NCBI GenBank assembly: GCA_903871465.1
Contig: CAIQHB010000013.1
Coordinates: 1-64,000 of the forward strand
Length of the DNA stretch: 64,000 nucleotides
Source: an uncultured Methanosarcinales archaeon
GTDB lineage: Archaea; Halobacteriota; Methanosarcinia; Methanotrichales; Methanotrichaceae
Reading direction: 5' to 3'
Within the stretch, counting starts at the first letter, position 1, and each line of letters opens with the position of its first letter. The notes beneath the pieces were generated by a model. The model saw nothing but the letters and a program-made list of their open reading frames with translations. It made no database searches and was not told where the DNA came from. Shown here one piece after another: positions 2,299 through 14,415 of the stretch. Both the position numbers and the translations under genes were made by a program.

Positions 2299-2321
2299 AG
2301 GATATGACATTCGAGGTTGCT

Positions 2322-4898
2322 ATGTCGTCATTAGCTCTATGTGGGCTATGTATTATAATTCTCTTGATTGGATCAGCAGCAGCTGCTGACGTACCTTTCG
2401 TTTTTGATGGGGGGTCCTCAAACGTAGCTAGCTATACCTCTGCTCAGCTAGAACAGGCATATTTGGCTTCACCAGATCTCACGGGAGTGCCCCCAGTATC
2501 TTACGCAGCCGACAATGCAACCATAGAGTTTCCAATTGTAGGTGGCGGCAGTGCTCCGGGTGGCACGACAGTGAAAAAAGCAGAAGAACTCCGAAAATTG
2601 TTTGACTCCCGTGTGGAGCCGGATAATTCCAAAGTCCATGAAGAAGCTATTCATATCGGAATCAGTCATCCAGGAGATTATACAATTGAACAAGTCAGCG
2701 CAATTTTTAGCTATTTGATGAAAGGTGATAATCATAAAAACGGATGGAGTTATGTACGCGATCCAAGAGGTGTAAATAACTTCTTTTATGCCAATGAGAC
2801 TCTAACGCAGGGTGAAAATGCCGATCCCGAATGTGTAGGTGGAGGTGGCTGTGCGGATTTTGCCATTCTTATGTCTGCCCTTATGGAGTCCATCGGCGGA
2901 ACTACACGAATTGTTCTAGCCAGCAACAATACCACCGGAGGCCATGCCTATGCAGAAGTCTATCTCGGCCAGCTTAATGACCCAAATAGCCAAGTGGATG
3001 GCGTTGTTAATTGGTTGAAACAGGATTTCGAGACGGATAAGATTTTTGTAAATATCAATACAAGTACAAAAGAAGTCTGGCTCAACCTGGACTGGTGGGC
3101 AGATGAAAAAGGGAATCCGCATCCTGGCGGGCCTTTCTTCACAGGCGATAAGAATATCGTTCTTTATATCAGAGAGAATTATCCAAAAGTCCCTCTAAGA
3201 TTGCCTGAAAAACCCAATAAGCCGCCTAAACTAATTAGTCTAACATCGGACAAAACTAGCCCGCAGGATAATGGAACAGCTATAACATGGACCGCCGAGG
3301 CAAAAGATCCTGATAAAGATCCGGTCATCTATCGCTTCTTCCTGAACGACGATCCAGAAACAAAATGGATAAAGGAAAATAAGTGGGTCTGGAACACTAC
3401 AGGTGACGATATTGGCGATAACCGAATTGAGGTTAGATTAAGGGATGGAAAGCATGCCGGTCCAGATGGTTTTGATAGCAGGAGAATTGCTAACTTCACT
3501 GTAATCGAGCCAATAGAGAAATCCAATCCACCAGTGAATCAGGCACCGGTCATCGATAGCCTTACGTCCGATAGATACAGTCCAGCAGACGCAGGAACCG
3601 CTATAACCTGGATCACAGTGGCTAAAGATGCTGACAACGATACGATACTTTACCACTTCTTCTTGAATGATATACCTATGACCGAATGGATGAAGGATAA
3701 TATTTGGGTTTGGAATACTACTGGTGAGGATCTGGGTCACAATCAAATCGAGGTCCAGGTAAGAGATGGAAAGCATACTGGTCAAGACAGCTTTGATAAT
3801 AACAAAACGGCCAGCTTCACCATAATCGAGCCAAGGCCGGTCCCTCAGGCACCTTCGAACCAGACTCCTGTCATTGAGAGCCTGGGGGTGGACAAATCAA
3901 GCCCGCAGGATGCCGGAACATCCATAACCTGGACCGTGTTGGCCTACGATCCCGAAAATGATTCCCTATTCTACAGATTCTTATTGAATGGCAGATCGGT
4001 AACAGACTGGACTTCCGATAATGTCTGGCACTGGCTTTCATCAGAGAATGATGCGGGGAAAAATCAGATCGATGTCCAGGTGAGGGACGGCAAACACGCC
4101 GGTCCTAAAGCCTGCGATGATAGTGCGGCTGCCGACTTCGAAATAGAGATTCCAAACCAGCCGCCTACATTAACTGGATTTGAATCCAGTCCGACAAGTT
4201 CGCAACCATCCGGGACAATGGTGAGATGGATTGCATCAGCCACAGATCCTGATAGCGATGCTCTATTTTACCGTTACTGGCTGAAAGGGCCCTCGACCAA
4301 TGATATCATGACAATAGTCCGTGATTGGTCCAACGAGAATACATGGATATGGACAACATACGCTACAGATATCGGCCGGAACCAGATTCAGGTTTGGGTC
4401 AGAGACGACCATCATGCTGGAACAAATGGATCGGATGATCAGAATGATGCTTACTTCATAGTGCAACCCACGAACAAGCCCCCGAATTTGGCCAGCTTGA
4501 ACCCGGATCATCCCAGCCCTCAGGATACCGGAACGGATATTGTCTGGACGGCTTCAGCTTCTGATCCAGATGGCGATCCGGTACTCTATAGGTTCCTGCT
4601 AAATGGCAAGCCGGTCACTGATTGGAATATCGAGAATACCTGGACATGGACGACTGCCAAAGACGATGAAGGTGAAAACCAGCTAGAAGTGCGCGTTAGG
4701 GACGGAATGCATGCCGGTTCTGAAGACTTCGATGATAAGATGTCTGTGAGCTTTATGATAAATAAGATTGAAAAGCAATCCAATGCTGTTGTTCTAGGTG
4801 GTAGTAAAACCTACAGCTACGTTCCCGGCCCTGCCTTCACCTCTTACAAGCCTAGTTACAGACCCGGTACCGGTGCTTACCCAATCGGCGGTATTTGA
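2322..4898 (+). CDS. Secreted transglutaminase-like protein with five Ig-like repeats
   Basis: An 858-residue exported protein. The start chosen is the ATG at 2322 (MSSLALCGLC) rather than 2304: it aligns with the starts of the paralogues and sits about 40 nt behind the TATA box. A signal peptide ends near ...GSAAAADVPF. The head is a transglutaminase-like fold with a candidate triad of Cys177 (GGGGCADF), His208 (GGHAYAEV) and Asp257 (LNLDWW). Next come five Ig-like units of about 95 residues, each with PQDxGTxITWT, DPxxDxxxYRFxLN, a WxW pair and RDGKHAGPxxFD. The tail is Tyr/Pro-rich. Acidic DPDxD motifs suggest possible calcium binding (inference). Substrate unknown; a peptidase or a protein cross-linker is possible. 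Confidence 0.85.
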   Translation: MSSLALCGLCIIILLIGSAAAADVPFVFDGGSSNVASYTSAQLEQAYLASPDLTGVPPVSYAADNATIEFPIVGGGSAPGGTTVKKAEELRKLFDSRVEPDNSKVHEEAIHIGISHPGDYTIEQVSAIFSYLMKGDNHKNGWSYVRDPRGVNNFFYANETLTQGENADPECVGGGGCADFAILMSALMESIGGTTRIVLASNNTTGGHAYAEVYLGQLNDPNSQVDGVVNWLKQDFETDKIFVNINTSTKEVWLNLDWWADEKGNPHPGGPFFTGDKNIVLYIRENYPKVPLRLPEKPNKPPKLISLTSDKTSPQDNGTAITWTAEAKDPDKDPVIYRFFLNDDPETKWIKENKWVWNTTGDDIGDNRIEVRLRDGKHAGPDGFDSRRIANFTVIEPIEKSNPPVNQAPVIDSLTSDRYSPADAGTAITWITVAKDADNDTILYHFFLNDIPMTEWMKDNIWVWNTTGEDLGHNQIEVQVRDGKHTGQDSFDNNKTASFTIIEPRPVPQAPSNQTPVIESLGVDKSSPQDAGTSITWTVLAYDPENDSLFYRFLLNGRSVTDWTSDNVWHWLSSENDAGKNQIDVQVRDGKHAGPKACDDSAAADFEIEIPNQPPTLTGFESSPTSSQPSGTMVRWIASATDPDSDALFYRYWLKGPSTNDIMTIVRDWSNENTWIWTTYATDIGRNQIQVWVRDDHHAGTNGSDDQNDAYFIVQPTNKPPNLASLNPDHPSPQDTGTDIVWTASASDPDGDPVLYRFLLNGKPVTDWNIENTWTWTTAKDDEGENQLEVRVRDGMHAGSEDFDDKMSVSFMINKIEKQSNAVVLGGSKTYSYVPGPAFTSYKPSYRPGTGAYPIGGI

Positions 4899-4982: not shown

Positions 4983-7367
4983 ATGTCCTCTTTGACACTC
5001 TGGTTCTGCGTGATCATTCTCATTGGATCGGGAGCAGCCGCAGACGTGCCGTTCGTCTTCGGCGAGGGATCATCAGGCATGGCTGGTTATACCTCTGCTC
5101 AGCTAGAGCAGGCATCTATTGCTTCACCAGATCTCACGGGTGTGCCTGCAGTATCCACCCCACCAGACAATGCGACCCTGGACTTTCCAATTGTAGGTGG
5201 TGGCAGTGCTCCAGGAGGCACGACAGAAAAACGGGCAGACGATCTCAGAAAGTTGTTCGATGCCCGGGTGGAGCCACTTCAACCCAAAGTGAGTGAAGAA
5301 GCTATGCATATCGGATTAAGTCATCCGGGAGATAATACCATTGAACAAGTCAGCGCAATTTTTAGCTATATGTTGAACGGTGATAGCCGCAAGAAAGGAT
5401 GGGGATATGTACATAATACAAGAGGTGTAAATAACTTCTTTTATGCCAATGCGACTCTAAGGGAGGGTGAAAATGCTGATCCACCATGTGTGGGTGGAGG
5501 CGGATGTGCTGATTTTGCCATTCTCATGTCCGCCCTTGTGGAGTCCATAGGGGGTACTACACGAATTATTCTAGCCCATAACAATACCTCAGAAGGCCAT
5601 GCATTTGCAGAAGTATATGTGGGCAGACTCAATTCTCCCGATAGTCAAGTGGATGCCGTTATCAATTGGCTTAGGCAGGATTTCGAGACAGATAAGATTT
5701 TTGTAAATATCAATACGAGCACAAAAGAAGTCTGGCTCAACCTGGACTGGTGGCCTGACCAAGCGGGCAATCCACACCCTGGAGGGCCGTTCTTCACAGG
5801 TGACCAGAATATAGTTCTTTATATCAGAGAGAATTATCCAAAAGCTACTTTGAATTTGCCTGGAAAAGCGAATAAACCGCCTAAATTAATTAGTCTAACT
5901 TCAGACAAAACTAGCCCTCAGGATGCTGGAACGACTATAACCTGGACTGCTAAGGCCAAAGATCTGGATAAAGATCAGATATTTTACGCGTTCTTCCTGA
6001 ATGACAATCATGTAACCAAATGGGTAAAGGATAACACATGGGTCTGGACAACAACAGATAACGATACTGGTGAAAATCAGATCGAAGTCCACATAAGAGA
6101 TGGAAAGTATGGACATGCTCTTCAAAATGGGTTTGATGATCACAGGTCTTCTAGCTTCAATATAACTACGCCTGAGATCAAACCGATTGTAACAACAACA
6201 ACAATAACCAAACCTAGCCCAGCTGCCCAGGCCCCAGCAACTCAGCTTGCACCAACTATCGAGTCTCATGTCGAATCATGGCAAAAGACTTTCATAGGGT
6301 CTGGCAACGGTTCAGTCTCTTCTGTTCGGCAGACGAACGATGGTGGATACATAATCGCTGGGAGTACCAATTCGTCTGCCTGGCTGATCAAAATCGATTC
6401 CACAGGGAACAAGCTATGGGACAAGACCATCGGCGGATCGAAAGATGATGAGGCGTATTCGGTCCAGCAGACGAACGATGGAGGATACATAACCGCTGGG
6501 TGTACCTATTCGTGGAGTAATTCGTATGGTGTAGGCACCTTTGAACATGCCTGGCTGATCAAGACAGATGCATCAGGCGACATGATATGGGACAAGACTT
6601 TAGGAGGATCGGGCTTGGATAAGGCGTATTCGGTCCAACAGACGAACGATGGTGGATACATAACCGTTGGGATTACCTTTCCTGATAAAGGCGGCTTTGA
6701 TGATGTCTGGCTGGTCAAGACAGATGCATCAGGCGACATGATATGGGACAAGACCTTCGGTGGACCGGGTTATGATGAGGCGGAATCAGTCCAGCAGACG
6801 AACGATGGTGGATACATTATAGCGGGCCAAATAGACTACTTCGAGGGTGGTGATGCTTGGCTGATCAAGACAGATGCATCAGGAAATGAGCTATGGAACA
6901 AGACTTTCGACGAATTGGGCATCGATGAGGCGAGATCGGTCCAGCAGACGAACGATGGTGGATACGTAATAGCTGGTTATACTAGTTCGTCTGGTGCAGG
7001 CAAAACGGATGCCTGGCTGATCAAGACAGATGCATCAGGAAATAAGCTCTGGGACAAGACTTTCGGCGGATCTGGCATCGATCAGGCGTATTCGGTCCAG
7101 CAGACGAGCGATGGTGGATACATAATCGCTGGACTTACCGGGTCGTATGGTGCAGGCAAAACGGATGCCTGGCTGATCAAGACAGACGCATCAGGGAACA
7201 AGCTCTGGGACAAGACTTTCGGCGGATCGGGCATCGATCAGGCGTATTCGGTCCAGCAGACGAGCGACGGCGGATACATAATCGCTGGTTCTACTCAGTC
7301 GTCTGGCGCAGACGTCTTAGATGCCTGGCTGATCAAGACCGATGCCAATGGGCAGGTACAGGGCTAG
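4983..7367 (+). CDS. Secreted transglutaminase-like protein with a seven-bladed beta-propeller tail
   Basis: A 794-residue exported protein starting MSSLTLWFC with a signal peptide to about residue 20. The head matches the previous gene, with candidate triad Cys175 (GGGGCADF), His206 (EGHAFAEV) and Asp255 (LNLDWW). One Ig-like unit follows (about 300-393), then a Thr/Pro/Ala-rich linker. From about residue 430 to the end there are seven repeats of about 50 residues, each with VQQTNDGGYIIAG, DAWLIKTDASG and WDKTFGGSG, which is the number needed to close a seven-bladed propeller. The repeats are also near-identical in DNA, pointing to recent expansion. Propellers of this type occur in surface proteins of methanogens. 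Function of the whole is unknown. Confidence 0.86.
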   Translation: MSSLTLWFCVIILIGSGAAADVPFVFGEGSSGMAGYTSAQLEQASIASPDLTGVPAVSTPPDNATLDFPIVGGGSAPGGTTEKRADDLRKLFDARVEPLQPKVSEEAMHIGLSHPGDNTIEQVSAIFSYMLNGDSRKKGWGYVHNTRGVNNFFYANATLREGENADPPCVGGGGCADFAILMSALVESIGGTTRIILAHNNTSEGHAFAEVYVGRLNSPDSQVDAVINWLRQDFETDKIFVNINTSTKEVWLNLDWWPDQAGNPHPGGPFFTGDQNIVLYIRENYPKATLNLPGKANKPPKLISLTSDKTSPQDAGTTITWTAKAKDLDKDQIFYAFFLNDNHVTKWVKDNTWVWTTTDNDTGENQIEVHIRDGKYGHALQNGFDDHRSSSFNITTPEIKPIVTTTTITKPSPAAQAPATQLAPTIESHVESWQKTFIGSGNGSVSSVRQTNDGGYIIAGSTNSSAWLIKIDSTGNKLWDKTIGGSKDDEAYSVQQTNDGGYITAGCTYSWSNSYGVGTFEHAWLIKTDASGDMIWDKTLGGSGLDKAYSVQQTNDGGYITVGITFPDKGGFDDVWLVKTDASGDMIWDKTFGGPGYDEAESVQQTNDGGYIIAGQIDYFEGGDAWLIKTDASGNELWNKTFDELGIDEARSVQQTNDGGYVIAGYTSSSGAGKTDAWLIKTDASGNKLWDKTFGGSGIDQAYSVQQTSDGGYIIAGLTGSYGAGKTDAWLIKTDASGNKLWDKTFGGSGIDQAYSVQQTSDGGYIIAGSTQSSGADVLDAWLIKTDANGQVQG
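6280..7350 (+). repeat. Seven near-identical coding repeats of about 150 bp
   Basis: The propeller region contains seven copies of a unit that includes GGTCCAGCAGACGAACGATG or a close variant and GCCTGGCTGATCAAGACAGA. The last two units (about 7015-7345) are the most alike. Such repeats are open to unequal crossover, so blade number may vary between strains. Confidence 0.8.
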
Positions 7368-7399: not shown

Positions 7400-7419
7400 G
7401 AAAAATAGATATAGTTGTT
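7400..7419 (+). promoter_or_regulatory. TATA-box region, third paralogue
   Basis: GAAAAATAGATATAGTTGTT precedes the ATG at 7442 by about 39 nt. A TTG at 7415 is in frame with the gene but lies within this element, which argues against it as the start. Confidence 0.65.
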
Positions 7420-7441
7420 AGTACAAGATACTCTGATCTCC

Positions 7442-9583
7442 ATGTCACCGTTGGCACTCTGGCTCTGCATAGTTCTTCTCGTTGGATCAGGTGCAGCAGT
7501 AGATGTGCCTTTCATCTTTGACACGAAAACCTCCGGTGTATCCAACTATACTTCTGCTCAGCTAGAACAGGCATCTATCGCTTCACCAGATCTCACGGGA
7601 GTGCCTGCAGTATCCACGCCACCAGACAATGCGACCCTGGACTTTCCAGTTGTAGGTGGCGGTAGCACTCCTCAAGGAACAACCGAGAAAAAGGTTGCTG
7701 ATCTCAGAAAGTTGTTCGACTCTCGGGTGGAGCCAGATAAAGTTCATGATACGGCTATTGACATATCAGCTGCTACCCCAGGAGAGTATGCTGTAAATCA
7801 GGTTAGCGCAATTTTTAGCTACCTAATAAGCGGTGATAATCAGAAGAAAGGCTGGAGCTATATATCAGATCCACGTGGTGTAAATGACTTCCTTTATGCT
7901 AACGATACCTTAAAGAGAGGAGAAAAGGCAAAATGTGTGGGTGTTGGTGACTGCGGTGATTTTGCTATCCTCATGTCTGCACTTGTGGAGTCCATTGGTG
8001 GAACTACAAGGATTGTTCTGGCCAGCAACAATACCACCGGTGGCCATGCCTATGCTGAAGTTTATCTTGGCCTGCTCAATGACCCAAATAGCCAAGTGGA
8101 TGGTGTTATTAATTGGTTGAAACGGACTTTCGAGACAGATAAGATTTTTGTAAATATCAATACGAGTACAAAAGAAGTCTGGCTCAACCTGGACTGGTGG
8201 CCGGATGAAAAAGGGAAACGCCCAGGCGGGCCGTTCTTCACAGGTGATAAGAATACAGTTCTTTATATTAGAGAAAACTATAAAAAATATCCTTTAAATT
8301 TGCCTGAAAAAGCGAATAAACCACCTAAATTAATTAGTCTGACTTCAGACAAACTTAGCCCTCAGGATGCTGGAACGACTATAACCTGGACTGCTAAGGC
8401 TAGAGACCCGGAAGACGATCAGATATTTTACAAGTTCTTCCTCCGTGACGATCCTGTAACTAACTGGACAAAGAACACATGGGTCTGGACAACTACCGAG
8501 AATGATGAAGGTGATAATAAAATAGAGGTTCAAATCAGGGACGGAAAACATGCACTTCTAAATGGATTCGATTGTAATATAGTTGCTAATTTCACGATAA
8601 CTGAGCCTAAGCCGATATCTCAGGAATTGACAAATCAACCGCCAATTATCACCAGTCTTGTATCGGACAGACCTGGCCCTCAAGACGTAGGTACGGTCGT
8701 GACCTGGACCGTAAAGGCTGAAGATCCTGATAATGATCAAATACTCTATCGCATCCTCTTAAATGGTGAGCCGCAAGGCGTTTGGACCGGACATAATTCG
8801 TGGAATTGGGATATTACTGATGCCAATGTTGGGGATAATCAGGTAGAGGTATGGGTCAGGGATGGAAAGCATAAAGATCAAAATGGATTCGACGATCGCA
8901 AGTCCATGAGCTTTGCTGTAACCGCGTCTAAGCAGGAAGTGGCTAGTGGAGAGTCTGGTACCTATGATCCATCGAAGTGGACTGAGAATGGCAATGCACT
9001 ATTCAAAGAGGGATCTTATGAAGAAGCTTTGAAGTGTTTTGAAAAGGCGATACAGATCTCCCCATCATATGCTGATGCCTGGTACGGAAAAGCCAATGTG
9101 CTAGGTACGCAAGGCAAATATGAAGAATCGCTGGCCAGTCTGGACAAAGTCATGAAGATCGACCCATCGAATCTTGCAGCATTAAATAATAAAGGCGCCG
9201 CTCTATATGAATTGGGAAGATATGAAGATGCATTAGCATGCTATGATGAATCCATAAAAAAGGATCCCACATATTCGACCCCCTGGGCTAACAAAGGAGA
9301 AGTTCTCCTCAAATTGGGTAAGAACAGTGAAGCCCTTGATTGCAGCGAAAAATCCCTGAATATTGATTCCGCTGATGCATTTACGTGGGCCATAAAAGGC
9401 AAAGCACTTACTGCATTAGGAAAACATACTGAAGCACTGGAATGCTTCGCACAATCAATCAAACTGAACCCACAGGATGCTGACGCATGGAACAATAAGG
9501 GCATTGTTCTGGAGAAATTGGGGCGATCATCAGAGGCTGGTAATGCATATGCCAAAGCAAAGGAGCTTGGTTACGCTGCATAA
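7442..9583 (+). CDS. Secreted transglutaminase-like protein with two Ig-like units and a TPR tail
   Basis: A 713-residue exported protein from ATG 7442 (MSPLALWLC), with a signal peptide. The head has candidate catalytic residues Cys171 (GVGDCGDF), His202 (GGHAYAEV) and Asp251 (LNLDWW). Long stretches of the head are nearly identical in DNA to the genes at 2322 and 4983. Two Ig-like units follow, then about six TPR units from near residue 515. The final unit ends GRSSEAGNAYAKAKELGY, like the ends of the TPR tails at 2255 and 14415. The gene at 9619 follows after 35 bp and may be cotranscribed. Confidence 0.85.
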   Translation: MSPLALWLCIVLLVGSGAAVDVPFIFDTKTSGVSNYTSAQLEQASIASPDLTGVPAVSTPPDNATLDFPVVGGGSTPQGTTEKKVADLRKLFDSRVEPDKVHDTAIDISAATPGEYAVNQVSAIFSYLISGDNQKKGWSYISDPRGVNDFLYANDTLKRGEKAKCVGVGDCGDFAILMSALVESIGGTTRIVLASNNTTGGHAYAEVYLGLLNDPNSQVDGVINWLKRTFETDKIFVNINTSTKEVWLNLDWWPDEKGKRPGGPFFTGDKNTVLYIRENYKKYPLNLPEKANKPPKLISLTSDKLSPQDAGTTITWTAKARDPEDDQIFYKFFLRDDPVTNWTKNTWVWTTTENDEGDNKIEVQIRDGKHALLNGFDCNIVANFTITEPKPISQELTNQPPIITSLVSDRPGPQDVGTVVTWTVKAEDPDNDQILYRILLNGEPQGVWTGHNSWNWDITDANVGDNQVEVWVRDGKHKDQNGFDDRKSMSFAVTASKQEVASGESGTYDPSKWTENGNALFKEGSYEEALKCFEKAIQISPSYADAWYGKANVLGTQGKYEESLASLDKVMKIDPSNLAALNNKGAALYELGRYEDALACYDESIKKDPTYSTPWANKGEVLLKLGKNSEALDCSEKSLNIDSADAFTWAIKGKALTALGKHTEALECFAQSIKLNPQDADAWNNKGIVLEKLGRSSEAGNAYAKAKELGYAA

Positions 9584-9618: not shown

Positions 9619-10461
9619 ATGATTTGTAGAAAATTTGTCGTAGCCGTCATTCTATCATTGCTATGCATTGGAGTTGTTGAATCTGCGCAATGGACAGCGA
9701 CAAGCCATAAAATGGTTAAATCACCGATAAACTCCTCCGAAACGAAAGGGCATGAAGATGCCACAAGCAAGAACCAATTGCCAAGCATAATCAGCATCTA
9801 TCCAAGTCTTGATAGTCCTCAACAGATTGATATGCCCATCGGTTGGAAGGTGACCGCGTCAGATCCCGATAATGATAGCATTTACTATAGATTCTGGCTA
9901 AAAGGTCCTAGAACTGGAGGAAAATGGCAGATACTGCAAGATTGGAGTCCGACCAATGTGTGGTACTGGAGGACTGACGAGAAAGATGTTGGCCTATCCG
10001 ATGTACGAGTAGAGATAAAAGATGGTAAGCATACTGATGCCGAAGATATGGATGCGTCTAAGGATTATATCGGATATCAAATAGCTCAGGAGCCAGGTAA
10101 TTTAAATGTAGAGGTGTCTAGCGATGTTTATTCCGATAGGGATCGAAACGTATACTATTGCCCGAAAGGAAACATCATGACAGTATATAATAGAATTTTT
10201 TTGATGGGTTCTGATATTGATAAAATTAAAGAAGTGCGATATTTTCTTCACGAATCATTTAATCAACCAGAAGGAGTTTTAGGAGATCCAGAAAACAGTT
10301 TCGAAATTTGGATATGGACCTGGGGCGGATTTCCGATTAAGGTGGTTATCACAACAAAAACCGGACCGCAAATAGAGAAACATTATCAATTTAATTTCAA
10401 GTCCAAGTACGATGAATCACAGAAAAAGGGGATACCACTTATCGAGAATTGTGAAGGATAA
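9619..10461 (+). CDS. Secreted Ig-like plus YEATS-like domain protein
   Basis: A 280-residue protein with a signal peptide (MICRKFVVAVILSLLCIGVV), one Ig-like unit (about 55-155, with DPDNDSIYYRFWLKG and KDGKHTDAEDMD), and a C-terminal domain (about 165-265). That domain contains VRYFLHESFNQPEG, then FEIWIWTWGGFPIKVVIT. The YxLHxSFxxP followed by F-x-W-x-W-G-x-F pattern resembles YEATS domains, and the same domain closes the protein encoded at 10626. There is no transglutaminase-like head. YEATS folds are best known as intracellular acyl-lysine readers, so an exported copy is unusual. The fold assignment rests on pattern only. Confidence 0.78.
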   Translation: MICRKFVVAVILSLLCIGVVESAQWTATSHKMVKSPINSSETKGHEDATSKNQLPSIISIYPSLDSPQQIDMPIGWKVTASDPDNDSIYYRFWLKGPRTGGKWQILQDWSPTNVWYWRTDEKDVGLSDVRVEIKDGKHTDAEDMDASKDYIGYQIAQEPGNLNVEVSSDVYSDRDRNVYYCPKGNIMTVYNRIFLMGSDIDKIKEVRYFLHESFNQPEGVLGDPENSFEIWIWTWGGFPIKVVITTKTGPQIEKHYQFNFKSKYDESQKKGIPLIENCEG

Positions 10462-10583
10462 AACTGCAAGCTTCTTTGTGATATCATCGAGTCCTTCAAT
10501 ATATCAGGGCGTTTGGCACAGGAAGTGGCAATTCTGAGTAAGCAGCCTCCTTCAGCCAAAGAGCTAGTTTTAGTTTTTGATGT

Positions 10584-10603
10584 AAGATACATATAGTAGT
10601 AGA
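10584..10603 (+). promoter_or_regulatory. TATA-box region, fourth paralogue
   Basis: AAGATACATATAGTAGTAGA stands about 40 nt before the ATG at 10626, with the same spacing and core as the other family promoters. Confidence 0.6.
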
Positions 10604-10625
10604 AGCAATACGCGCTTGACTTGTC

Positions 10626-12095
10626 ATGTCCTCTTTGGCTCCCTGGCTCTACGTGATTCTTCTCATAGGATCGGTGGCAACCGCAGACATCCCTTGCGGC
10701 TACAACGAAACGGGCTTTCACGAGATCGCACCACCTGACAAATCAGGTGGAGCATCCGACAGAGTCACTTTTGGCGCTTTCTCTCAGTACCAAGGAGCTC
10801 CCTTAGTAGGCGTTCCTCCCATATCCGAACCTGCCCAGGAAGTTAAGGGCACTATAGATCTTATTGAGAACGCTGTTGACCCAGAGAACACACTCACGCG
10901 CAACACGGCAGTGGAAGTTGCTGCCGACGCCCCGGGGCCGTACAACATCGATCAGATCTGCTACATCTATAAATATCTCAGGGATAACTGGGAGTATGTA
11001 TCCGATCCCAGGGGCATCGATTACATTAGCTCGGGAAACAATACCATAAAGGTTGCTGAAAAGATTGCCGCTCGCCAGAATAAGAGCGTGGCGGGTGCAG
11101 GTGATTGTGACGATTATGCGGTGCTCACCGCGTCCCTCATTGAAGCTATCGGCGGTGCCACGCGTGTAGTGCTGGCTCATGGCGAAGGGCAGGGCCACGT
11201 CTACACCGAGGTATACCTTGGCAGCATAAACACCAACTCCACCAAGGCGATACTCAACTTGCTGAGGAACAAATTCAACTGCGACCTGGTTTATGGCCAT
11301 CTGGCCGATGAGAATAAGAGCTTCTGGCTCAACCTCGACTGGAACAGCACACATCCGGGTGGCCCATTCTTCAAGTCCCAGAAACAGTCCATAGCCTATG
11401 TGCGACAGAATTACGTTAAAACCTCTGTAGGTCTTCCTCCTCAGTACGCTCCTCTAATCAAAGCAGGTGTATTGGCCTGCACAGTGAAGGACGGGGAGGG
11501 CAATCCACTAGCATCCACTATGCTCGTCTCTGGCAACGGCAAGCAGATTCCCATCAGCGTCGATCTCTCAGGCGGAATTAGAGAGAAGCTTCCAGTAGGG
11601 GACTATAAAGTAACAGCCAGCAAGCCCGGCTACGAGTTCGAAACAAAGACGGTGACTGTGCTGGAGGACCTGGAAGCATCGATCGATCTAGAAGGTGTAC
11701 ATAAAAGTGTACCCAATATCCAGATCATCACCGAAGCAACGGACCCTGCAAAACGATGTGTCTATTACACCAAAGATACCGAAGGACATCAGGTCTTTAA
11801 GATAAGGGTTTACATAACCGGACAGGATCTCGACCAAATCAAATCGGTCAAGTATTCTCTTCACCAAACATTTGAGAAACCGGAGCACGTCAGCACCGAT
11901 CCATCTAGCAACTTCGAAATGATCATTTGGTCCTGGGGGCGCTTCGTGATGCCCATCACCGTTACGACGATAGATGGAAATGAGTACGAGTACATGTATC
12001 CGTTTACCTTCCGCGCTCAGCTTGAAGATGCCCAGAGAAGCGGATACAGGTTCATAGATGCAACAAGTTCATGGGATGTAATCGGAGGGTATTGA
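10626..12095 (+). CDS. Secreted transglutaminase-like protein with a YEATS-like tail
   Basis: A 489-residue exported protein (MSSLAPWLYVILLIGSVATA). It is the most divergent head of the family but has the clearest transglutaminase-like active site: Cys161 (GAGDCDDYA), His191 (GHVYTEVYL) and Asp238 (LNLDWN). About residues 280-355 form a carboxypeptidase-regulatory-like beta domain (VKDGEGNPLAS, VGDYKVTASKPGYEF). Residues about 360-475 form the same YEATS-like domain as the gene at 9619 (VKYSLHQTFEKPEH, then FEMIIWSWGRFVMPI). No Ig-like unit is present. A shared binding tail on two neighbours suggests a common extracellular ligand; this is inference. Confidence 0.83.
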   Translation: MSSLAPWLYVILLIGSVATADIPCGYNETGFHEIAPPDKSGGASDRVTFGAFSQYQGAPLVGVPPISEPAQEVKGTIDLIENAVDPENTLTRNTAVEVAADAPGPYNIDQICYIYKYLRDNWEYVSDPRGIDYISSGNNTIKVAEKIAARQNKSVAGAGDCDDYAVLTASLIEAIGGATRVVLAHGEGQGHVYTEVYLGSINTNSTKAILNLLRNKFNCDLVYGHLADENKSFWLNLDWNSTHPGGPFFKSQKQSIAYVRQNYVKTSVGLPPQYAPLIKAGVLACTVKDGEGNPLASTMLVSGNGKQIPISVDLSGGIREKLPVGDYKVTASKPGYEFETKTVTVLEDLEASIDLEGVHKSVPNIQIITEATDPAKRCVYYTKDTEGHQVFKIRVYITGQDLDQIKSVKYSLHQTFEKPEHVSTDPSSNFEMIIWSWGRFVMPITVTTIDGNEYEYMYPFTFRAQLEDAQRSGYRFIDATSSWDVIGGY

Positions 12096-12167: not shown

Positions 12168-12189
12168 ATAACATGTTGTCTTGATCCCC

Positions 12190-14415
12190 ATGTCTACTTG
12201 GCCTCTATGGCTGTGCGTGATTCTTCTCATCGGATCAGGAGCAGCGGCAGACGTACCTTTCGTTTTTGACGAGACCACGTCGGGCGTGGCTAGCTACAAT
12301 TCGGATCAGATAGAACAGGCTCGTACCTCCTCTCCTGAACTCGTAGGGGTGCCCATTGTATCCTCGCCATCTGACAACGAGATCCTGGAGTTTCCAGTTA
12401 CAGGGGGCGGCAACACCCCCGGCGGCTCAGACGAGAAGAATGTAGGGGATTTCAAGAAGGTTTTTAACGCCAGAGTAGAGCCGAGCAATTCGCGGGTCCA
12501 TGATGAAGCCCTCATGCTGGTAGCCAAATTTCCCGGGGATCTCACCCTTGGCCAGATTTGCTCCATTTACGATTATTTGAAAAATGGCGAAAGCTCAATC
12601 GAAGGCTGGAGTTATGCCCGTGATCCGAGAGGCATTGACTACTTCATGTACGCCAATGAATCTTTAAGTATTGGCGAGAAGTCGAACTGCGTAGGCGTAG
12701 GTGATTGCGATGATTTCGCCATTCTCATGTCTGCGCTAGTGGAATCCATCGGCGGAACGACTAGGATTATTCTGGTCAGCAACAATACTACGAGAGGACA
12801 TGCTTATACTGAAGTTTACTTGGGCCAACTAGGCACCAAAAACAGCCAAGTCGAAGAGATCATCAACTGGCTGAAGCAGAAGTTCAACACGGATAAGATC
12901 TATACTCATATTGATACTGACACCAAAGATGTCTGGCTCAATATGGATTGGGGACCGGATGAGAAAGGAAATGCTCATCCTGGCGGGCCTTTCTTCCAGG
13001 GGGATATGCACATCGTGCTATGCATCAGAGACACGTTCGTAAAGACTCCATTAAAGCTACCTGAGAAATCCAATAAACCGCCCAAGCTGACCAGCCTGAC
13101 TCCAGAAAAGCCTAGCCAACAGTATGCAGGAACTGCCGTAACCTGGACGGCCGAGGCCAGAGATCCAGATAACGATCAGATACAATACCAATTTTTCCTG
13201 AACGACGAGCCTGTGACCAAATGGCAAAAGGAAAGAACTTGGGCTTGGGCAACTACCGAGAACGATGCTGGTGAAAACCAGATAGAGGTTAAGGTACGAG
13301 ATGGAAAGCATGCCGGTCCGGATAGCTTTGATAGCAAAAAGGCTACCAGCTTTACTATAACTACGCCTGAAACCAAACCGATCGCAACAACAACAGTAAC
13401 CCAACCATCTACAAATCAATCTAATCTGGCAGAGGACTGGGTCAAAAAAGGCAACATTTTTCTTAACGAGAGTCTTTACGATTTAGCCATCAAAGCTTTT
13501 GATGAAGCCATATTGATTGACCCCAACCTTCCCGAAGTCTGGTACAACAAAGGCAGGGCATTAGACGGTCAGCTAAACTACGATGAAGCCATCAAGTGCT
13601 ATGACGAGGCCGTCAAGTGCTATGACGAGGCCATTAGGCTAAATCCCAAAAATGACGAACTCTGGTACAAAAAAGGCATTGCTTTCGACAACAAAGGCTG
13701 TGCTCTCCTGAACCAGAAAAACAGCAACTACGATGATATCACAATGGCATGGGACGAGGCTGTCAAGGCCTATGACGAGGCCATTAGGCTAAATCCCAAC
13801 TATGCCGAGGCCTGGTACAAAAAAGCCGTTGCTTTAATGATAAATCAAAAGGGTGACGAGGCCATCAAAGCATTCGATGAGGCTACTCGACTGGATCCCA
13901 AAAATGCTCAAGTCTGGTATGAAAAAGGCTCAAATTACATGACGATTTTGGGCGACCACTACGATGAAGCGATCAAGTGCTATGACGAGGCCATCAGCAT
14001 AGATCCCAATTTTGCGGGAGCTTGGTCCGAGAAAGGCAATGCTCTCAGAGTGCAGGGCAAGTATGATGAGGCCATCAAATGCTTTGATGAGGCCCTCAGG
14101 ATAGATCCCAAAGATAGCTGGACCTGGGGCGTCAAAGGCTGGGCTCTCTTCGACCAGGGCAAGTACGATGAATCCACCAAGGCTTACGATGAAGAGATTA
14201 GGCTAAATCCCAATTCCGATGCTTGGAGCAAAAAAGCGGAGGCTCTCGATAAGCAGGGCAAATACGATGAGGCCTTACAAGCTTACGACGAAGCTATCAA
14301 AATAAGTCCTGATGCTGGTGTATATTGGGAAGAAAAAGGCAATGAACTTAATGCACTTGGGCGAACTACAGAAGCAGAAGCCGCCTTCGCCAAGAGCAAA
14401 GAGCTGTTTGGGTGA
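12190..14415 (+). CDS. Secreted transglutaminase-like protein with Ig-like and long TPR tail
   Basis: A 741-residue exported protein. ATG 12190 (MSTWPLWLC) is preferred to TTG 12181 because it matches the paralogues and the TATA spacing. The head has Cys173 (GVGDCDDF), His204 (RGHAYTEV) and Asp253 (LNMDWG). One Ig-like unit follows (about 298-390), then a Thr-rich linker (TTVTQPSTNQSN) and about nine TPR units to the end. The array is irregular: a short duplication (CYDEAVKCYDEAI) and an insert around residues 495-515 break the 34-residue period. The end, GRTTEAEAAFAKSKEL, matches that of the protein encoded at 1065. The 3' end of this gene closes the array. Confidence 0.85.
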   Translation: MSTWPLWLCVILLIGSGAAADVPFVFDETTSGVASYNSDQIEQARTSSPELVGVPIVSSPSDNEILEFPVTGGGNTPGGSDEKNVGDFKKVFNARVEPSNSRVHDEALMLVAKFPGDLTLGQICSIYDYLKNGESSIEGWSYARDPRGIDYFMYANESLSIGEKSNCVGVGDCDDFAILMSALVESIGGTTRIILVSNNTTRGHAYTEVYLGQLGTKNSQVEEIINWLKQKFNTDKIYTHIDTDTKDVWLNMDWGPDEKGNAHPGGPFFQGDMHIVLCIRDTFVKTPLKLPEKSNKPPKLTSLTPEKPSQQYAGTAVTWTAEARDPDNDQIQYQFFLNDEPVTKWQKERTWAWATTENDAGENQIEVKVRDGKHAGPDSFDSKKATSFTITTPETKPIATTTVTQPSTNQSNLAEDWVKKGNIFLNESLYDLAIKAFDEAILIDPNLPEVWYNKGRALDGQLNYDEAIKCYDEAVKCYDEAIRLNPKNDELWYKKGIAFDNKGCALLNQKNSNYDDITMAWDEAVKAYDEAIRLNPNYAEAWYKKAVALMINQKGDEAIKAFDEATRLDPKNAQVWYEKGSNYMTILGDHYDEAIKCYDEAISIDPNFAGAWSEKGNALRVQGKYDEAIKCFDEALRIDPKDSWTWGVKGWALFDQGKYDESTKAYDEEIRLNPNSDAWSKKAEALDKQGKYDEALQAYDEAIKISPDAGVYWEEKGNELNALGRTTEAEAAFAKSKELFG

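Follow-up and report, generated by a model that had tools for sequence, protein, structure and literature searches.

What a YEATS domain might do outside the cell is the question raised by two neighbouring genes of an uncultured Methanosarcinales archaeon of the Methanotrichaceae (GenBank assembly GCA_903871465.1, contig CAIQHB010000013.1, of which the first 64,000 nucleotides were analysed and are called here the window). YEATS domains are readers of lysine acylation in chromatin, and the host family comprises acetate-using methanogens. According to an initial annotation of the window, two adjoining reading frames with signal peptides end in a YEATS-like domain, which would be extracellular and would lie beside a transglutaminase-like enzyme. 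The two genes, named 9619 and 10626 after their first positions, and their surroundings are listed in Table 1.

Table 1. Features of the two pYEATS genes and of the array around them (window coordinates; aa, protein residues)
Feature	Position	Strand	Basis
Array paralog: transglutaminase-like + 5 Ig	2304..4898	+	
Array paralog: transglutaminase-like + Ig + delta-60-type repeats	4983..7367	+	
Array paralog: transglutaminase-like + 2 Ig + TPR	7415..9583	+	
Ig-pYEATS protein, predicted exported, 280 aa	9619..10461	+	ORF list, profile matches
Predicted signal peptide MICRKFVVAVILSLLCIGVVESA of the Ig-pYEATS protein	9619..9687	+	hydropathy 3.10 over 13 residues; cleavage site by eye
Ig-like domain of the array type, aa 54-138	9778..10032	+	local profile match; AlphaFold pLDDT <50 here
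pYEATS domain, aa 160-279 (Pfam stretch 200-256)	10096..10455	+	profile; YEATS fold, pLDDT 79-90 in ten-residue means
Pocket residues H211, S213, F214, W235, G236, F238 of the 9619 protein	10249..10332	+	profile alignment, motif
Transglutaminase-like / transthyretin-like / pYEATS protein, predicted exported, 489 aa	10626..12095	+	profiles, model
Predicted signal peptide MSSLAPWLYVILLIGSVATA of the 10626 protein	10626..10685	+	hydropathy 2.25 over 13 residues; cleavage site by eye
Transglutaminase-like module, putative triad C161-H191-D238	10677..11429	+	PF01841, structure matches
Transthyretin-like (CarboxypepD_reg-like) beta domain, aa 277-361	11454..11708	+	structure match Z 12.9
pYEATS domain, aa 360-481 (Pfam stretch 391-458)	11703..12068	+	profile; Taf14 YEATS match Z 9.1
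Pocket residues H413, T415, F416, W437, G438, F440 of the 10626 protein	11862..11945	+	profile alignment, motif
C-terminal tail WDVIGGY	12072..12092	+	identical in 8/8 aligned fusion proteins
Array paralog: transglutaminase-like + Ig + TPR	12181..14415	+	

Domain organisation and predicted fold

Both reading frames are present with hydrophobic leaders predicted as signal peptides, and the motif ascribed to them, YxLHxxFxxP followed by FxxxxWxWGxF, was located as YFLHESF...TWGGF in the 9619 protein (aa 208-238) and as YSLHQTF...SWGRF in the 10626 protein (aa 410-440). The proposed likeness to YEATS has been borne out by profile search. Against PF20305, the profile of the pYEATS family that Burroughs and Aravind are said to have defined in 2020, the two proteins scored 54.2 bits (E 1.4e-14) and 61.5 bits (E 7e-17), respectively, with a curated cut-off of 26.9, and both also exceeded the cut-off of PF03366 (YEATS; E 1.5e-7 and 3e-7). 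In the AlphaFold model of the mature 9619 protein, the ten-residue means of pLDDT are 79-90 from residue 141 and below 50 upstream. When this model was compared with the PDB by Foldseek, all 50 matches listed were YEATS entries (best E 2.5e-4; TM-score normalised to the target about 0.5), and a second aligner gave YEATS in 50 of the 50 matches listed, with Taf14 at Z 9.5 (3.2 Å over 98 residues). The model of the 10626 protein has a mean pLDDT of 78 and three recognisable parts, the last of which matches the YEATS domain of Taf14 (5d7e) with a Z of 9.1 (3.2 Å over 97 residues, 24% identity). In neither model did the YEATS beta-sandwich give way to another fold, and the models indicate that the C-terminal domain of both proteins is a genuine YEATS domain. 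As to kind, the structural matches are clear, but their scores are modest, and the 9619 model cannot be relied upon in its N-terminal half.

The 10626 protein carries transglutaminase-like, transthyretin-like and pYEATS domains in that order in one polypeptide. The placing of a transglutaminase beside the YEATS domains thus holds for the neighbouring genes, but falls short for 10626, in which the enzyme is also part of the same chain. Membership of the transglutaminase-like superfamily is indicated by a match to PF01841 (E 1.6e-7, 32.0 bits, cut-off 23; aa 94-198) together with the Cys-His-Asp triad, and the enzyme part resembles 3kd4 (Z 10.3, 2.9 Å over 135 residues) and 3isr (Z 9.4, 4.9 Å over 147 residues). 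The members of PF01841 and these two putative cysteine proteases share fold and triad with the putative 10626 enzyme, which differs from them in its fusion to pYEATS. A likeness to pseudomurein endoisopeptidase was also considered, and no clear whole-enzyme match was found in a viral structure library. Of the 17 enzyme modules aligned, 16 keep the putative catalytic Cys and all keep the His and Asp. In one transglutaminase-like paralog (L023:11190-12227) Gly replaces this Cys, and the protein is probably not an active enzyme. The middle domain of 10626 superimposes on a transthyretin-like structure with 1.7 Å over 84 residues; its match to PF13620 is under the cut-off (E 3.2e-5), and that of the ortholog L026 is over it. 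The tail WDVIGGY was not seen in other pYEATS types in the alignments.

Predicted export and distribution

Extracellular location, as proposed in the initial annotation, is supported by two kinds of computed evidence. The first is the leader score, that is, the best 13-residue hydropathy at the N-terminus, on which the export call rests: it ranges from 2.25 to 3.34 in the six proteins of the array, compared with 0.38 to 1.67 in 17 window ORFs taken as cytosolic, and is at least 2.1 in 20 of the 20 pYEATS reading frames of the Methanotrichaceae. Outside the family, scores of 1.42, 0.84 and 2.55 were obtained for a TIR-pYEATS protein (L021) and for pYEATS proteins of Sinorhizobium and Stanieria, respectively. 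By hydropathy, both window proteins have an N-terminal leader and lack a later membrane span, and the leaders end in AxA-like sites as judged by eye. The second is the frequency of N-glycosylation sequons: the six array proteins have 1.16 per 100 aa (45 found versus 31.0 expected from shuffling), compared with 0.31 per 100 aa for the 17 ORFs taken as cytosolic (27 versus 26.3). Both window proteins are therefore predicted to be exported. The sole cysteines outside the leader of the 9619 protein, C181 and C278, are conserved as a pair in four of four domains of the Ig-pYEATS type and would fit a disulfide.

The opposite reading, in which the leader would be a membrane anchor and pYEATS would lie inside the cell as part of a conflict system, draws on the TIR and caspase-operon settings of other pYEATS domains and on the membrane-anchored pYEATS of Stanieria. 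Nevertheless, the AxA-like leader ends, the enrichment in sequons, the Ig and transthyretin-like domains that accompany pYEATS and the lack of any PADLOC match for either window protein make it very improbable.

With regard to distribution, 20 pYEATS domains were found in 18 of 50 Methanotrichaceae genomes, the two window genes being the only matches in this genome, and none in 14 control genomes. The architectures, all with predicted export, are eight transglutaminase-pYEATS fusions, three Ig-pYEATS proteins, one short protein with pYEATS alone (L007) and eight others with a different exported N-terminal part, one of which is broken (L019). In L019 and in L035, from M. harundinacea 57_489, the family pattern is lost past approximately profile position 41, in a frameshift-like manner. 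In a scan of 294 genomes of the phylum, six matched pYEATS, namely five Methanotrichaceae and G204. The protein of G204, L021, joins pYEATS to an effector domain of TIR type (E 6.8e-11 with PADLOC) and has no leader. A genome scan for relatives retrieved 14 loci, all of them archaeal by title, of which 12 are named as Methanothrix, Methanocrinis or Methanotrichaceae and two only as uncultured archaeon or uncultured Methanosarcinales. The two window genes belong to a Methanotrichaceae-restricted set of pYEATS proteins that are extracytoplasmic by prediction.

Bacterial pYEATS examples were drawn from plasmids only. In Sinorhizobium (L037), the pYEATS gene adjoins a caspase gene; plasmid relatives in Rhizobium are annotated as FRG; and a Stanieria protein of 144 aa (L036:3782-4216) consists of a single membrane span and, after it, the pYEATS domain, which its charged N-terminus suggests would face outward. 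The window domains share with the PF20305 family the above-cut-off match, the core motif and the YEATS fold; however, these other members are joined to TIR, lie beside a caspase gene or are short and membrane-anchored, whereas the window domains stand at the C-terminus of leader-bearing proteins and, in one case, on an enzyme. The new setting anticipated for YEATS is indeed new as far as the literature searched goes, in which no publication dealing with YEATS domains of prokaryotes, whether archaeal or bacterial, or with exported ones was found (in PMC7159879 the word is only an author name, and it is absent from PMC8195603). A phage or plasmid origin of the two genes was rejected, with no tblastn matches in phages, none in plasmids (one unrelated chance match at E 10) and no relatives in viral contigs. 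Membership of the two proteins in a conflict system was rejected as well, PADLOC and PHROGs giving no matches.

The putative acyl-lysine pocket and its candidate ligands

In characterised YEATS domains, PMC9329655 describes an aromatic sandwich, formed by F62 and W81 in Taf14 and by F59 and Y78 in AF9, and an S58-lined cage in AF9 with F28, H56, F59, Y78 and F81; the acyl-lysine pocket is called end-open there. Mapping by profile alignment to Taf14 residues 53-92 aligned H59, T61, F62, W81, G82 and F84 of Taf14 with H413, T415, F416, W437, G438 and F440 of 10626, and all six pocket residues (His, Ser/Thr, Phe, Trp/Tyr, Gly, Phe) are present in both window domains. The His, Ser/Thr, Trp, Gly and second Phe are found in all 19 complete Methanotrichaceae domains (the twentieth, in L019, breaks off) and the first Phe in 18, the lone departure being a Leu in L020, an Ig-pYEATS protein. 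Since L021 and the Stanieria and Sinorhizobium proteins, the three non-family domains examined, keep the same residues, the pocket is a trait of pYEATS overall and is not particular to the exported ones. The eukaryotic readers Taf14, AF9, ENL, GAS41 and YEATS2 share with the window domains the predicted fold and the pocket His, Ser/Thr, Phe, Trp/Tyr and Phe, although identity in the structure alignments is 14-24% and the counterpart of the loop-1 aromatic AF9 F28 was not reliably placed by the profile alignments. Moreover, they work on acylated histones in the nucleus, whereas the window proteins are predicted to be exported.

The computed domain, fold, pocket residues, leaders, fusion and conservation are best explained if pYEATS is an exported module that recognises an N-epsilon-acyl-lysine-like ligand and would place a cell-surface enzyme, an explanation with about an even chance of being correct. 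Outside the cell, pYEATS would act as a recognition module in the way YEATS does inside cells: an N-epsilon-acyl-lysine-like amide would slot between the pocket Phe and Trp, and its binding would put the protein on a surface protein or a secreted one. In the case of 10626, it would deliver the transglutaminase-like cysteine enzyme, be it a protease, an isopeptidase or a cross-linker, to its substrate. A conserved exported YEATS with its pocket kept and with an enzyme acting on Gln/Lys or peptide bonds would carry the reading of lysine marks to the archaeal cell surface, and the small soluble pYEATS domain allows a direct test of the original ligand of the fold.

Alternatively, pYEATS might merely add another Ig-like unit to modular surface proteins, serving as a beta-sandwich spacer or in adhesion and not binding acyl-lysine. 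Sister genes do have Ig-like and other parts at the same position, and YEATS is an Ig-type fold according to PMC9329655. However, a spacer would be expected to drift, yet no other segment of the fusion, the enzyme included, is as conserved as pYEATS: among eight orthologs, mean pairwise identity is 81.6% for pYEATS (80 of 130 positions invariant), 70.6% for the enzyme (68 of 195), 59.3% for the middle domain and 51.6% for the N-terminal stretch. The pocket residues are among the invariant positions, although they may double as residues of the fold, and the spacer is considered rather unlikely. Another alternative is that the pocket holds a different planar surface ligand, such as a glycan acetamide, a cofactor or a small signalling molecule. 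The enzyme module (E 1e-10) is present in 10 of the 18 pYEATS genomes and absent from eight, in which the pocket is the same, so that the ligand does not have to come from the enzyme. Nothing positive speaks for any such ligand, however, and the Ser/Thr, Phe and Trp fit the acyl-lysine arrangement, which makes a non-lysine ligand quite unlikely.

The fused enzyme and its tandem array

A more specific form of the acyl-lysine explanation concerns the fused enzyme. The transglutaminase cross-link, epsilon-(gamma-glutamyl)-lysine, is itself an N-epsilon-acyl-lysine. For this reason, and because the pocket is end-open in known members, the transglutaminase-like domain might make or cut this isopeptide and the YEATS domain fused to it might hold the bond, as writer or eraser and reader of extracellular cross-links. 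If true, this would be the first known YEATS reading a cross-link, and an extracellular one. The eight pYEATS genomes without the module show that pYEATS can do without the transglutaminase and is not strictly tied to it, which counts against a strict isopeptide-enzyme link, and the proposal is regarded as quite unlikely.

Five transglutaminase-like genes stand in tandem (2304, 4983, 7415, 10626, and 12181) and differ in their C-terminal parts. At a threshold of E 1e-10, the array family has 12 transglutaminase-like modules in this genome and at least one in 20 of 50 Methanotrichaceae genomes. Seven of the eight fusion genes share a contig with another transglutaminase-like gene, and the contig of the eighth has only 3,067 bases. 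The fusion proteins form one clade with a support of 100/99, a reading taken from the enzyme tree only, as most forks of the pYEATS tree are open and its TIR-type outgroup sits on a very long branch. The DNA of the 10626 enzyme part is 47-51% identical to that of its array neighbours, compared with 63-82% among the neighbours themselves; with its own clade and these identities, the 10626 enzyme represents an old separate lineage and not a recent swap. Sister enzymes bear TPR, Ig, repeat or Cys-rich parts at the position of pYEATS, which gives the array the appearance of a single enzyme with exchangeable recognition parts.

Several smaller observations concern the same family. A paralog in this genome (L040:1447-2955) ends in a cysteine-rich stretch, which adds to the range of C-terminal parts. 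Three short proteins of 214-231 aa are predicted to be exported: in one (L031:3304-3999), the enzyme family's N-terminal stretch runs straight into TPR without the catalytic core, and the other two (L040:736-1386 and L041:2428-3069), mutually similar by eye, lie at partial matches to the enzyme family. Finally, 63 bases at positions 890-952 of the window, near a transposase-like ORF (24-488), match the end of the enzyme module of 2304 at 92% identity and are possibly the remnant of a broken enzyme copy.
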